Source: Catenulispora sp. MAP5-51 (lineage in GTDB: Bacteria > Actinomycetota > Actinomycetes > Streptomycetales > Catenulisporaceae). Taken from it: a stretch of 64,000 nt of DNA. The translations under genes and the position numbers were made by a program. This document shows, one piece after another, positions 36,213-41,890 of the stretch. The number at the start of each line of letters is the position of its first letter. The stretch's first letter is position 1. Location: NCBI RefSeq assembly GCF_041261205.1, contig NZ_JBGCCH010000007.1:186001-250000 (forward strand), written 5' to 3'. Under the pieces are notes generated by a model. That model saw only the letters and a program-made list of their open reading frames with translations. It was not told the DNA's origin and did not search any database.

Positions 36213-37754
36213 TTACCGCCGCCCGACCCACCCGCCGATCTGCTGCAGCACGCCCCGCAAAGCCACGTTGTCAGGATGCTGAACCCCCAGATCCATCTCC
36301 CGGTCCCGCAGCACTCCCGCCAGCACCGGCCACGCTTGTTGCGGCTGGCCGGTGGCGACCAGCAGCCGCCCGATCCGCTCGCGCATCGCCAGCGCCTTGC
36401 GCGCGTCGTGGGCCGGGAGGGCCAGGTAGGGCGGCAGGACCGCCTGATACTCGGCCAGGGCGCCGGTCACGTCGCCGGTGTGCTCGCGGCACTGCGCCGC
36501 CTGGTAGCGGAAGCCGAGGGCCTCGTCGCTGGCCGCTCCGTGATCGGCGGCGGCGGTGCGGGCCAGGCGGTCGAACTCGGTCAGGGCGGCGGCGGGCTGG
36601 CCGTCGAGCATCAGGATCCTGGCGTACTGCTTGCGCAGGGTCCGCACCACCGGGCCGTGGGGGTCGTGCTCGCGTTGGGCGAAGGCCAGCGCCGAGCCCA
36701 GGATCTGGACGGCCGGGGCGTAGCTGCCCTCGCCGACGAGTCGTTCGGCCTCGGCCAGGGACGTCGCCAGGTCGATCTCGGGGCCGTCGCGGTCGGCGGC
36801 CGGCAGGGGCCGGCCCGGGGCGCGGGCGGCCGGGCCCGGCGGCGGGGCCAGCGGGGAGTGGAACGGGCGGAAGGGGTCGAAGGGCTGATCCGCCGCGTCG
36901 GCCGGAGCCTTCGGCAGCAGTGCGACCAGCCGGTGGTACACCTCATGCGCCGCGGCCGGGCGGGCTTGCGGCTGCTTGGCCAGCAGTTCCAGGATCAGCG
37001 CCTCGAGCGCCGGCGGGACGTCGGGCCGCAGCGTGCGCACCGGCGTCGGTGCTTCGGTGAGGTGCTTGGCGAACAGCGCGTAGGGCGTCGGGGCGTGGAA
37101 GACCGGGTGGCCGGTGAGCACCTCGTGCAGCACGCAGCCCAGCGCGTACAGGTCGCTCGGCGGTCCGGCCAGGCCGGAGGACGCCTGCTCCGGCGCCATG
37201 TAGCCGGGACTGCCGAGGGATTCGCCGGTGCGGGTCAGCTTGCTCAGATCCGGGTCGAAGACCGCCGCGATGCCCAGGTCCAGCAGCACGGCCGTCCCGT
37301 CGGGACGCAGCATCACGTTGCCCGGCTTCAGATCCCGGTGCACCACCGGGATCGCGTGGACCGCCGCCAGCACCGTCGCGATCTGCGCGCCCAGCGCCGC
37401 CGCCTGCGGCCACGGCACGCCGTCGTGCTCGGCGACGAAGTCGGCCAGGCTCACGCCGTCGATGCGCTGCATCACCAGGTACAGCTCGCCGCCGTCCGGG
37501 TCCCCGTCGACCCCGGCGTCGTGGATGGTGACCACGCCCGGGTGGTCGATCCGGGCCAGCGCCCGGCATTCGCGGGAGAACCGCTTGGCCAGCATCGCCC
37601 GGTCCGGGTGGAACGCGGCGCCGGTCACGATGAGCTTCACGGCGACGTGCCGGTCCAGGCGCTCGTCGTAGGCCCGCCACACCTCGCCCATGCCGCCCCG
37701 GCCGAGCGGCACGTCCAGGCGGTAGCGGCCGGCGATCACCCGGCCCCGCGTCAC
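36213..37754 (-). CDS. Ser/Thr protein kinase (PknB type) with TPR-like C-terminal part
   Basis: A 513-residue soluble kinase. Kinase domain about 1-275: glycine loop PLGRGGMGEVWRA, Lys in VAVKLIVTG, catalytic VHRDLKPGNVM (about 136), DLG (in place of DFG) in LLDLGIAAVF, and GSPGYMAPEQAS. The rest is a Pro-rich link and then helical TPR-like repeats (AVQILGSALAFAQREHD, AALTEFDRLARTAAADHG, ALAEYQAVLPPYLALP) to the end. It has no membrane helix or PASTA domains. GTG start overlaps the stop of the membrane-protein gene by GTGA, so they are translated together. Confidence 0.92.
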   Translation of the reverse strand: MTRGRVIAGRYRLDVPLGRGGMGEVWRAYDERLDRHVAVKLIVTGAAFHPDRAMLAKRFSRECRALARIDHPGVVTIHDAGVDGDPDGGELYLVMQRIDGVSLADFVAEHDGVPWPQAAALGAQIATVLAAVHAIPVVHRDLKPGNVMLRPDGTAVLLDLGIAAVFDPDLSKLTRTGESLGSPGYMAPEQASSGLAGPPSDLYALGCVLHEVLTGHPVFHAPTPYALFAKHLTEAPTPVRTLRPDVPPALEALILELLAKQPQARPAAAHEVYHRLVALLPKAPADAADQPFDPFRPFHSPLAPPPGPAARAPGRPLPAADRDGPEIDLATSLAEAERLVGEGSYAPAVQILGSALAFAQREHDPHGPVVRTLRKQYARILMLDGQPAAALTEFDRLARTAAADHGAASDEALGFRYQAAQCREHTGDVTGALAEYQAVLPPYLALPAHDARKALAMRERIGRLLVATGQPQQAWPVLAGVLRDREMDLGVQHPDNVALRGVLQQIGGWVGRR

Positions 37755-38425
37755 CGGGCTTCCTCGCCGCCGAGGAAGCCTCGCAGCTCCCTGAGTTCGG
37801 CCTGGATCTCCGCCGCCATGTCCTGCGCCGCCATGTCCTGCGCCGCCATGTCGTGCGCGGCCGCCGCCGGCACCGGTGGGACGGCCGGTGCTGCGACGGG
37901 GGCTGAGAGGGGGCCGGGGCCCGGGGCATTGACGGGATAGAAAGCGGGCGCGGTCGCGGCCATCGGATTCGGATTCGGGTTCGGGTTCGGGTTCGGGTTC
38001 GGGTTCGGATACGGCAGCGTCTGCGACCACGCGGCGCCGTATCCGCCATACGCCACCGGCCGCCGCACCGGCTTGGGCAGGCCGGGACCGCACCCGCGCC
38101 AGGCGTACACGGTCGCCGCGATGAAGAACGCGACGCAGTAGAACCCCGCGCCGGTCCCCGCGTCCCCCGCGGATCCGTGGCCGTTGGCGGGCACCGTGGC
38201 CACCAGCACGCACTCGCCGACAGTCCCGGCCACGTTCGCCGCCAGCCACCCCCACGCCTTCGTGGTCCGCCGCCGCCGCGCGATGTGCAGCGCCGGCACC
38301 CAGGCCGCCAATCCGAGCGTCCCGAACGGGATCACCGTCCACAGCACGCGGATGGCGAGCGACCCGGCTCGCGCGGCCGCGGACGGCGGCGAGTAGGGGG
38401 TCGGCGACTGGTGCGGAGCGCTCAT
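37751..38425 (-). CDS. Membrane protein with repeats, coupled to the kinase gene
   Basis: A 224-residue protein with three hydrophobic helices (LAIRVLWTVIPFGTLGLAAWV, GWLAANVAGTVGECVLVATV, GFYCVAFFIAATVYAW), then a proline-rich cytoplasmic part with PN repeated seven times, then a helical tail with three AAQDM-type repeats and charged residues (AEIQAELRELRGFLG). The tail may form a coiled coil and recruit the kinase. The GTGA overlap with the kinase gene says that both products are made in a fixed ratio. Confidence 0.78.
   Translation of the reverse strand: MSAPHQSPTPYSPPSAAARAGSLAIRVLWTVIPFGTLGLAAWVPALHIARRRRTTKAWGWLAANVAGTVGECVLVATVPANGHGSAGDAGTGAGFYCVAFFIAATVYAWRGCGPGLPKPVRRPVAYGGYGAAWSQTLPYPNPNPNPNPNPNPNPMAATAPAFYPVNAPGPGPLSAPVAAPAVPPVPAAAAHDMAAQDMAAQDMAAEIQAELRELRGFLGGEEAR
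37812..37856 (-). repeat. 15-base tandem repeat in coding sequence
   Basis: Three copies of GCCGCCATGTCCTGC (third with one change) from 37812, encoding AAQDM repeats near the C-terminus of the membrane protein. Confidence 0.85.
37964..38008 (-). repeat. Hexanucleotide tandem repeat in coding sequence
   Basis: Seven or more copies of CGGGTT/CGGATT, encoding a Pro-Asn run on the minus strand. In-frame changes in copy number would only change linker length. Confidence 0.9.
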
Positions 38426-38484: not shown

Positions 38485-40380
38485 TCAGGACTTCCCCTCG
38501 CCGGCCGACGGCGCCACGGTGCCGTCGGCGAGCGCGTCGGTGATGCCCTGGACGAGCCGTTCGCCGGTGTCGGCCGCCTGCCGCAGCGCGTCGCTGAACT
38601 CCGCGATCCTGCGGAACGCCTCGGCGTATCCGCGTTGCCGTTCCAGCGGAAGCCGCGGCAGCGGCGCCTTGCGCAGGTCCATGCGGCTGCTGGTCGAGGC
38701 GTGGCTCACCGCCTGCCGGGTGACGGTGTCGCTGCGCAGGTATCCGGCGACGAACCACGGATCCAGCCGCGCCGGATCGGTGCGGATCACCGACGCCCCG
38801 CGCCCCGGAAGGGCGCCGATCGCCGGATCGCCCTCGGCGACGACCCGGGCCTGCCCGAGCGCGCCGCCCAGGACCGGCACCAGGATGTCGCCCGCCGCGA
38901 TCTCGGCGTCGCCGGCGATGGTCAGCGCTCCGGCCCGGGCCAGGTCGCCGAGCGTGGTCGACGGCCAGACCGTCGCGGGCTCCGCCTCCGTCCCGAGCGG
39001 CGGCAGCACGTCGGCCAGCCGCGCCAGGATCTCCTGTGTGGCCGTGCGGTATTCCAGTAGGCGGCCGTAGCCCAGGCCGGTGTCGGGGCGCGGGACGTGC
39101 CGGCCGGGGCTCAGGTCGACCGCGTCGTCGAGCAGATCGATGACGGGCAGCGCGACCCCGAGCCCTGATTCCCCCTGGAAGGCCTCGGGATCGCGGTCGA
39201 ACGCCCGCCACGCGGCCAGGATCCGTTCGGCGGCCGCCTCCGAGGGCACGCGCTCGGCGCGCCCGGAACGGTCGGCGTCGCTCTGGTCGATGAACAGGAC
39301 GCGGCTCGGCGCCGGGTCGGCGAGCCCGGGGCGTCGCAGAACCCAGAGATGCAGCGAGAGCCCGTACGGGGCCGCGCTCCCCGCGGGCAGCCCCACGACG
39401 GCCCGCAGCGCGCCGCGCCGCAGCAACTCGGCGCGGACCCGGCGCCCCGGCCGCCGCGCGGCCACCGCCGGCGGCAGCAGGATCGCGGCCGTCCCGCCGG
39501 CCCGCAGCCGGGCCACCGCGTGCTGCACCCAGGCCAGCTCGGCCTCGGCGCGCGGCGGCATGCCGTACTCCCAGCGCGGGTCGTAGGCGAGTTCGTCGTA
39601 GCCCCAGTCCCGTTGGGCCGAGGGCGGTTGGCAGAGCACCGCGTCGGCTTGGAGGGCCGGATGGGCCTCGGCGAGCAGGGCGTCGCCGGGCCGGACATCC
39701 ACGGTGCGGGCGCTGCCGGCGGCCGCGACCGCGAGCCGGGCCTGGGCCAGCGGGGCGAGCTCGGCGTCGGCGGTCTGGCCGACGAGCGACCCGGCCCCGG
39801 CGGCGGCAGCGGCGAGCAGAAGCGTTCCCACGCCGCACGAGGGATCGTGGACGACGGCCTCCTGCGCGCGCTCCCGGGGCATCGCGATCGCGGCCATCAG
39901 GGCTGCCAGCGCCGGAGTCGCCGTACCCGTGTCGCGGTCGCGTGCGTAGACGTCGAGGTAGCGCGCCAGAAGCTCTTCGAAGACCTCGCCCCGACCGGTG
40001 CCGCCGGCGATCGCAAGGGCCTGATCCAGCAGTTCGGAGCCGCCCGGGGCTTCGTCTGGGTTGTCGTCTGGGCCGTTTCCAGAGGCCAGAGCCATACCCA
40101 AAGCCGCGAGCGCTGCGGCGGTAGCCGCCTCGCCCCCGCCCCCGCTGCCGGCACCGTCCACGGCCCGCCACAGCTGTTCGCCGGCCGGGATCTCGGCGAG
40201 CTTGCCCTCGGCCCGCAGCCACCGCTCGACCTCGGCCAGCGAGAACGTGGGGCTGGTGTCGCTGCCGCCGACGGGCGCGGGGAAGCCGGAGTGCCGGCGC
40301 CGCCAGTTGCTCACGGCGGCGCGGCCGACGCCGGCGAGGCGGGCGATCTGGGCGGCGGTGACTTCGGTCTGCTCCGTCAT
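38485..40380 (-). CDS. HTH / N6-DNA-methylase-like / specificity-domain fusion protein
   Basis: A 631-residue protein in three parts. A MerR/excisionase-like helix-turn-helix (VTAAQIARLAGVGRAAVSNWRRRHSG, about 8-36) with FSLAEVERWL; a methyltransferase core with motif I DPSCGVGTLLLAA (about 178-190) and a target-recognition-like C-terminal third (about 450-620) resembling type I HsdS (LGDLARAGALTIAGDAEIAAGDILVPVLG, RMDLRKAPLPRLPLERQR). The core looks like HsdM (WVQHAVARLRAGG, ILLPPAV), but the expected catalytic NPP(F/Y) is CQPPS (about 244-248). So activity is doubtful; it may bind DNA and S-adenosylmethionine as a regulator. No restriction subunit nearby. Confidence 0.85.
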   Translation of the reverse strand: MTEQTEVTAAQIARLAGVGRAAVSNWRRRHSGFPAPVGGSDTSPTFSLAEVERWLRAEGKLAEIPAGEQLWRAVDGAGSGGGGEAATAAALAALGMALASGNGPDDNPDEAPGGSELLDQALAIAGGTGRGEVFEELLARYLDVYARDRDTGTATPALAALMAAIAMPRERAQEAVVHDPSCGVGTLLLAAAAAGAGSLVGQTADAELAPLAQARLAVAAAGSARTVDVRPGDALLAEAHPALQADAVLCQPPSAQRDWGYDELAYDPRWEYGMPPRAEAELAWVQHAVARLRAGGTAAILLPPAVAARRPGRRVRAELLRRGALRAVVGLPAGSAAPYGLSLHLWVLRRPGLADPAPSRVLFIDQSDADRSGRAERVPSEAAAERILAAWRAFDRDPEAFQGESGLGVALPVIDLLDDAVDLSPGRHVPRPDTGLGYGRLLEYRTATQEILARLADVLPPLGTEAEPATVWPSTTLGDLARAGALTIAGDAEIAAGDILVPVLGGALGQARVVAEGDPAIGALPGRGASVIRTDPARLDPWFVAGYLRSDTVTRQAVSHASTSSRMDLRKAPLPRLPLERQRGYAEAFRRIAEFSDALRQAADTGERLVQGITDALADGTVAPSAGEGKS

Positions 40381-40400
40381 GGCCGCAGCCTACCCAGTAT

Positions 40401-40456
40401 GTGTTCACAAGCGCCAGCCATCGACTCCGAGAAGTTGTCTGTTGACAGTGTTCACA
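40401..40456. promoter_or_regulatory. Two GTGTTCACA sites in the divergent promoter
   Basis: GTGTTCACA occurs at 40401-40409 and 40448-40456, 47 bases apart, between the methylase-like gene and the DUF4352 gene. TTGACA at 40442 is a possible -35 element that overlaps the second site. They are candidate operators or target sites for the HTH/methylase-like protein. Confidence 0.5.
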
Positions 40457-40514
40457 GTAATGTGGTTCGCTCTCTCAGGACACGAACGAAGCCCACGAAT
40501 TCAGGAGTACACAG

Positions 40515-41156
40515 ATGAGCCGTGAACACTTCTCCCCGGCCCGCGGCACGGTTCGGACCGGCCTCGGCGTGATCGCTCTGACCGCGGCGCTGGCCATGGC
40601 GACCACGGGATGCCAGAGCACGACGAAGGCGTCGGTGGTGGGCCAGGACCCGACGACCTCCGCGGCCGCCGCCGTCGGCGCGCCCGGCGCGGCTTCCTCA
40701 AGCTCGGCCTCCGCGCCGGCGAAGCCCGCCACCAGCAGCGCGAAGTCCTCGGCGCCGGCCGCGAGCGGCACCTTCAAGGTGGGCCAGCAGGTGAAGGTGG
40801 GCTCGTACACCGTGACCGTCCACAAGGTCACCTATCCGTACACCAGCGACATGGACCAGCCGGACGCCGGCAAGGCCTACGTCCTGCTCGACGTCGAGGT
40901 GGCCAACAACAGCGGCTCCTCGCAGGCCTTCTCCAGCCTGATGCAGTTCGGCCTGAAGGACTCCACCAACGCCAGCTACACCGAGACCATCGTGGTCGGC
41001 GCCGACGGCAACCCTCCGGACGGGAACATCTCGGCCGGACAATCGATGCGCGGCCCGGTCGCCTTCGAGGTCCCGGCCGGTGCCAAGGGCCTGCAGCTCA
41101 GCTTCGTGTCCGACCTCATCAACGGCGACAAGACCTATATAGATCTCGGCAAGTAG
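40515..41156 (+). CDS. DUF4352 lipoprotein
   Basis: A 213-residue exported protein with lipoprotein signal (LTAALAMATTGC, Cys33), a Ser/Ala/Pro linker to about 85, and an immunoglobulin-like DUF4352 domain (KVGSYTVTVHKVTYPY, GKAYVLLDVEVANNSGSS, VAFEVPAGAKGLQLSF). AGGAG lies ten bases upstream of the ATG. Such proteins are surface-bound and unknown in function. Divergent from the methylase-like gene with GTGTTCACA in between. Its 3' end carries a tandem repeat that contains the stop codon. Confidence 0.88.
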   Translation: MSREHFSPARGTVRTGLGVIALTAALAMATTGCQSTTKASVVGQDPTTSAAAAVGAPGAASSSSASAPAKPATSSAKSSAPAASGTFKVGQQVKVGSYTVTVHKVTYPYTSDMDQPDAGKAYVLLDVEVANNSGSSQAFSSLMQFGLKDSTNASYTETIVVGADGNPPDGNISAGQSMRGPVAFEVPAGAKGLQLSFVSDLINGDKTYIDLGK

Positions 41157-41266: not shown

Positions 41267-41890
41267 TCAGGTGTGCGCGGCGGACGGCGCTGTGAACACG
41301 TTCCTGGACTCGATCAGGGTGCCCGCGAAGGTCATCGGCGGCACGGTCGCGGCGGCGGCGCGCTCCTCCTGGGTGATCGGCACGACCGTTATCACGCGCA
41401 CCGGGCCCTCGCAGGTGTCGAGGAAATCGGGCGTGTCCGCCAGCAGGGGCCCGGCCAGGAACACCGCCGAACACCCGGGGAACGTCGGGAAGTCCTGCTC
41501 GAACCCGACGATCTGCGCCCAGCTCACCGCCCGGCCGGTCTTCCACGGGTACACGGCCAGGTTCGCCAGCTGCATCGCGATCTGCTGCTCGTCCTCCGGC
41601 GCCAGCATCCCGGCGCGGGACAGCCACAGTTCGGCGCGGCCGCCCTCCGTGTTCTCCGCACCATCCGCACCATCCGCGCCCTCCGCGCCGTCGGCCGCCG
41701 GCATCGGCCCGGTGGACATCCCGACCGTCACGAACGTGGTGAGTCCGGCCGGTTCGGCGGGCCGGTAGACGAAGACGTCGAGCCGCGCGACCGGGCCCGG
41801 ACCGTCGTCGAACGTGATCGAGGCGGCGGCGTCGCCGCGCCGTTCCATCAGGTTTCGGAAGACGTCGCGCAGGACCGGGGGTGCAGACAT
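41267..41890 (-). CDS. Suppressor-of-fused (SUFU) domain-like protein
   Basis: A 207-residue soluble protein: RLDVFVYRPAEPAGLTTFVTVGMST, then a Gly/Ala/Asp repeat insert (GADGADGAE), then AELWLSRAGM, QQIAMQLANLAVYPW, WAQIVGF and VRVITVVPITQEERA. This order matches bacterial SUFU-domain proteins, which often act as immunity proteins of polymorphic toxins, but no toxin gene is beside it here. So a free-standing SUFU protein of unknown role. Convergent with the DUF4352 gene. Confidence 0.75.
   Translation of the reverse strand: MSAPPVLRDVFRNLMERRGDAAASITFDDGPGPVARLDVFVYRPAEPAGLTTFVTVGMSTGPMPAADGAEGADGADGAENTEGGRAELWLSRAGMLAPEDEQQIAMQLANLAVYPWKTGRAVSWAQIVGFEQDFPTFPGCSAVFLAGPLLADTPDFLDTCEGPVRVITVVPITQEERAAAATVPPMTFAGTLIESRNVFTAPSAAHT

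Follow-up and report, generated by a model that had tools for sequence, protein, structure and literature searches.

The gene at 38485-40380 (reverse strand) of a 64,000-nucleotide stretch of DNA from the soil actinobacterium Catenulispora sp. MAP5-51 (the window) encodes a methylase-like fusion protein which is probably catalytically dead and probably acts, judging from sequence comparison, as a methylase-derived DNA-binding autoregulator of a kinase operon and of the divergent promoter. This reading is built on the domain make-up of the protein, on the disappearance of the motif II acid and of a proper motif IV, on purifying selection and on the conservation of the operon and of a site upstream of it. 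In the mechanism we propose, the helix-turn-helix (HTH), probably as a dimer, would bind CTGTGAACACTGTCAACAG in the shared intergenic region; the bound regulator would tune its own operon (regulator, membrane protein and Ser/Thr kinase) and also the divergent lipoprotein-like gene, and the methyltransferase fold and the half-S domain would have been kept as a dimerization scaffold and a second DNA-binding scaffold. We infer, in this scheme, the binding of the site by the HTH, the direction of the regulation, the absence of methylation and the signal of the kinase. The genes concerned are:

36213-37754, reverse strand: Ser/Thr protein kinase with a weak TPR match in its C-terminal half (Pfam, ortholog position)
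37751-38425, reverse strand: membrane protein with roughly three hydrophobic segments and a helix-like stretch at the C-terminus (hydropathy, no Pfam match)
38485-40380, reverse strand: HTH, methyltransferase-like and half-S fusion protein, 631 amino acids (open reading frame and translation, Pfam, PADLOC, model and fold match)
40515-41156, forward strand: divergent DUF4352 lipoprotein-like gene, sharing the intergenic region (PF11611, E 1.7e-23)

Domain architecture and fold

The first-pass annotation had described an HTH, an HsdM-like core and an HsdS-like domain joined in one chain, and the translated reading frame, Pfam and PADLOC all agree with it. The N6_Mtase domain (PF02384) occupies residues 131-397 with an E of 9e-26 and a score of 91 bits, against a curated cut-off of 20.4. 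At the N-terminus (residues ~6-60) there is a weak HTH_17 match, below the Pfam gathering cut-off, along with a match to PADLOC mad1 and helices in the structure model, and the HsdS-like C-terminal part (residues ~490-615) matches the PADLOC type I specificity-subunit models. The flanking domains are placed as follows:

40201-40365, reverse strand: HTH domain, residues 6-60, recognition helix GRAAVSNWRRRH (weak HTH_17, mad1)
38581-38970, reverse strand: half-S region resembling a target recognition domain (TRD), residues 471-600 (PADLOC specificity models)

Among proteins of solved structure, PacII M1 and type I M subunits are the closest in sequence. A structure model built from five sequences, with a pLDDT of only 69.6 and a pTM of 0.55, finds its best fold match in type I M subunits (3lkd, Z 26.3, rmsd 4.4 over 339 residues; PacII, Z 25.7) and also matches the M.S-type enzyme 7eew. 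The HTH of the window protein shows a mean identity of 79% with that of the Streptomyces clade, and the TRD-like region is, within the clade, about as conserved as the methyltransferase core, so that a role as a swapping specificity subunit is ruled out.

Loss of the catalytic motifs

Three motifs of the methyltransferase core bear on catalysis:

39826-39846, reverse strand: motif I DPSCGVG, residues 179-185, with substitutions at the canonical A and T/S (homolog alignment)
39772-39774, reverse strand: motif II acidic position, here Thr203 (D/E in 92 aligned homologs)
39619-39633, reverse strand: motif IV CQPPS, residues 250-254 (translation, ortholog comparison)

The reading of motif IV as CQPPS, made from the window before any comparison, holds: QPPS or QPPT stands in every Catenulispora-group ortholog whose sequence spans the site, and because these lie on independent contigs, a misassembly as the source of the motif is ruled out. 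The window protein thus departs from the [N/D/S]PP[F/Y/W] motif IV of active N6-adenine DNA methyltransferases, its clade having S or T in place of the aromatic residue. It also lacks the acidic residue of motif II, which holds the SAM ribose: where 92 aligned homologs have D or E, the Catenulispora clade has T or A, and its motif I has drifted as well (A to S, C or F; T/S to V, A, I or S). The SAM site had been called intact; DPSCGVG is indeed there, but with Thr203 at motif II and a drifted motif I the site is only partly so. This weakens the SAM-sensor half of the initial suggestion of a methylation-derived transcription factor or SAM sensor, and the transcription factor becomes the best supported of the options because of the conserved upstream site. 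Since the Asn and the aromatic residue of motif IV and the motif II acid are gone and motif I has drifted, loss of catalysis is strongly indicated for the window protein. Found throughout its clade, these changes argue for a regulator.

The sister clade, 34 sequences from other Streptomycetales (the Streptomyces clade), has HPPF or HPPY without exception and retains both the acid of motif II and the aromatic residue of motif IV; loss of catalysis is for this reason less strongly indicated there, and the HPPF orthologs could be active. It had been asked whether CQPP or the like replaces NPPF across the family, and whether homologs with a normal NPPF exist. The replacement extends to the Catenulispora group, as QPP[ST], and not to the HPP of Streptomyces nor to more distant paralogs, which alone have NPP[FY]; orthologs in the same operon are QPP or HPP. 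Further subfamilies have NPPF/Y, SPPF, DPP[AVT], EPPT, EPPL, NPPS, YPPT and other forms. The SPPF form is typical of N4-cytosine enzymes. In a quick tree of 98 rows, computed with the motif IV columns left out and with long branches that make some placements unsure, support is 100 for the Catenulispora clade, 100 for the sister HPP clade and 95 for their union, and motif IV has undergone at least 16 changes in its first residue.

These data also bear on the alternative that the protein is an orphan DNA methyltransferase which is still active, with a motif IV that unusually begins with Q or H, and marks a fixed genomic motif. In favor of such an enzyme are the preserved fold, the presence of motifs I and III, the conservation of the TRD-like region and the aromatic residue and motif II acid retained by the HPP clade. 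We nevertheless hold it to be unlikely, given the losses in motifs IV and II and the drift of motif I in the window clade and the wide variation of motif IV in the family.

The kinase operon and the maintenance of the gene

The absence of a restriction subunit nearby, already noticed in the first pass, is confirmed among the neighbors tested in the window, where no restriction gene was found, and the locus does not answer to a type I restriction-modification system with HsdR and separate HsdM and HsdS partners; what had been missed were the co-directional membrane-protein and kinase genes downstream of the fusion gene and the divergent promoter. The kinase starts with a GTG that overlaps the stop of the preceding gene, and its ortholog adjoins the fusion gene in both the Catenulispora group and Streptomyces. 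In Streptomyces, the trio of fusion, membrane protein and kinase lies between mfd and mazG, and the membrane protein of the window takes the position of the gene labeled "memb" in that operon. Five Streptomyces-group genomes (L206-L210) have the membrane protein and the kinase beside mazG without the fusion gene, which is therefore an accessory of that locus; four of these five loci have no operator-like match. The divergent DUF4352 gene is conserved in part of the Catenulispora group. In the membrane protein (37751-38425), a run of Asn-Pro repeats precedes the C-terminal helix-like stretch, and a SUFU-domain protein encoded at 41267-41890 of the window, two genes from the fusion, is conserved in three relatives.

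Compared with its nearest ortholog the fusion gene has a dN/dS of 0.12, and compared with the next one 0.24, the constraint extending across the domains; by this measure the gene is under purifying selection, which together with the conserved kinase operon supports a regulatory role. It is the sole PF02384 protein in a 10.9-Mb genome with a completeness of 99.97%; a catalytic partner of the same family acting in trans is thus ruled out for this genome, and that no such protein could supply the catalysis again speaks for the regulator. That the gene is a restriction-modification or methylase relic in decay, without present function, appears very improbable: several catalytic motifs are lost, and two well-sequenced genomes of the same genus (G004 and G009) lack the gene, yet dN/dS stays at these low values in close pairs, reading frames are intact in the well-assembled copies and the upstream site is conserved. 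G004 and G009 have neither a fusion ortholog nor a kinase match at an E of 1e-60, G009 having only a weaker fusion-like paralog.

Orthologs of the fusion are present in 77 of 150 Streptomyces genomes at an E of 1e-130. No phage match was obtained at an E of 1e-10, and the single plasmid match, at 35% identity, is on a Streptomyces plasmid. Searching the open-access literature under presumed locus tags gave no paper on the Streptomyces copy. In S. roseosporus, two gamma-class methyltransferases of 718 and 838 amino acids were deleted, and the mutant of the 838-residue protein grew poorly on two media (PMC9240718); either would be an experimental lead should it prove to be the fusion ortholog.

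Candidate operator and promoter

The region between the operon and the divergent gene contains the following elements:

40387-40392, reverse strand: possible -10 element TAGGCT (read from the sequence)
40403-40408, reverse strand: second GTGAAC, closer to the start codon (unchanged in all of seven Catenulispora-group promoters)
40439-40457, reverse strand: candidate operator CTGTGAACACTGTCAACAG, between the operon and the divergent DUF4352 gene (conserved upstream site)

The possible -10 element is so close to the ATG that the transcript may be leaderless; a sigma-70 scan found no promoter. A palindrome-like site is conserved in the fusion gene's own promoter, as is the case for operator-linked HTH regulators, and TGTGAAC-NNN-GTCAAC or a near form precedes most genes of the family in many subfamilies. 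Over the loci compared (2.49 Mb over both strands), 41 of the 42 exact matches to GTGAAC-N3-GTCAAC are upstream of family genes, and 41 of 85 upstream stretches of 260 bp contain one. In three distant promoters of the group the 19-base site is matched at 18-19 of 19 positions, the rest at 50/128 to 67/128. For the 19-mer, the genome contains a single exact match and a single match with three mismatches, a near-uniqueness that points to local control and, with the conservation of the site, favors the regulator; a large regulon is not seen, the other GTGAAC-N3-GTCAAC matches lying elsewhere in the genome.

The form of the site follows the recognition helix of the HTH, although this support for a regulator is confounded by relatedness. 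Members with a GRAA helix have the TGTGAAY-N3-GTCAA form in 50 cases and lack it in 16, against 1 and 18 for the other helix types (Fisher p 3e-8, inflated by relatedness among members). The GRAA form of the site is present at L113 and L115, whose helix is GRAA although they are linked to type I genes. Fifteen GRAA members have none of the three site forms, the whole SPPF group included. Alternatively, it may be the TRD that reads the conserved site, or the site may belong to the divergent promoter, GTTGAC being similar to a -35 box. As a separate observation, the L133-L138 subfamily has SPPF and none of the three operator forms found elsewhere.

Relatives in defense neighborhoods

Relatives of the fusion gene adjoin type I HsdM-HsdS-HsdR operons, DrmD-like helicases, JetC-like and pPIWI-RE genes, UvrD/GajB-like helicases and kinases, that is, type I restriction-modification, DISARM-like, Wadjet-like and pPIWI-RE settings. 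Pairwise identities across nine type I operons average 85% for HsdM, 34% for HsdS and 68% for the fusion's TRD-like region. Since the latter is conserved and HsdS is not, the fusion is not the variable specificity subunit of these operons and, from such comparisons, appears to act on a fixed sequence; the conservation of its TRD-like region also counts in favor of a regulator. In L105, L113 and L157 the fusion has EPPT or EPPL while the neighboring HsdM retains NPPF.

Proteins of this kind carry the annotation N-6 DNA methylase, and the PADLOC model closest to them goes by the name of type I methyltransferase. Tentatively, the whole actinobacterial family with this architecture may consist of methyltransferase-derived, sequence-specific transcription regulators that lead kinase and anti-phage operons, bind operators of one related class and have lost catalysis repeatedly. 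If many of them are regulators, methylome predictions and defense-system calls would be wrong for them in Streptomyces and its relatives; if the proposal is true, it would offer a testable switch for the control of several defense systems and of a conserved kinase locus, and a clear example of how a DNA-modifying enzyme became a transcription factor.

Among side observations, an extra gene of this kind leads actinobacterial type I operons that already have HsdM, HsdS and HsdR (L097, L101-L103, L105-L109, L113-L115, L140, L147, L153 and L157), with a degenerate motif IV in some of them. At L033, L089, L090, L096, L099, L100, L104 and L149, members with many forms of motif IV adjoin pPIWI-RE type genes (nuclease, REase, DinG-like helicase) and a Ser/Thr kinase.

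Comparison with known systems

Type I HsdM, PacII M1M2S and 7eew have the methyltransferase fold and the order of parts in common with the window fusion; they are catalytic NPPF-type subunits of modification enzymes, whereas in the fusion an HTH stands at the N-terminus, motif IV reads QPPS, and both the motif II acid and an R subunit are missing. The MADS system unites the same three activities as the window operon in Mad1 (HTH), Mad2 (methylase) and Mad6 (kinase), with PADLOC matches to all three, but in the window HTH, methylase and half-S stand in a single chain, and beyond the mad1/mad2-like and mad6-like genes no match to the Mad1-Mad8 set was found in the neighbors tested.

An anti-phage module of the MADS kind, in which the dead methylase would sense or bind DNA and the kinase would be the effector, accords with the matches of the protein to mad1 and mad2 and of the kinase to the mad6 and PD-T4-6 models, and with the defense neighborhoods of relatives. 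We regard it as quite unlikely: the kinase-model matches are generic for Ser/Thr kinases, the neighbors tested include no further MADS or defense gene, and the Streptomyces locus is fixed between mfd and mazG, unlike a mobile defense island.

For the preferred autoregulator, precedents exist among DNA methylases with an N-terminal HTH that repress their own promoter, such as M.EcoRII and M.SsoII. These two retain catalysis and are of the m5C type, whereas the window protein has a gamma-class N6-type fold and appears dead. RptR, a small protein of Gammaproteobacteria, is a repressor of type I restriction-modification defense islands (PMC12255303). It has in common with the fusion family the strong genetic association of a regulator with type I restriction-modification and a conserved palindromic site, the fusion family differing in being built on a methylase and in belonging to Actinobacteria.
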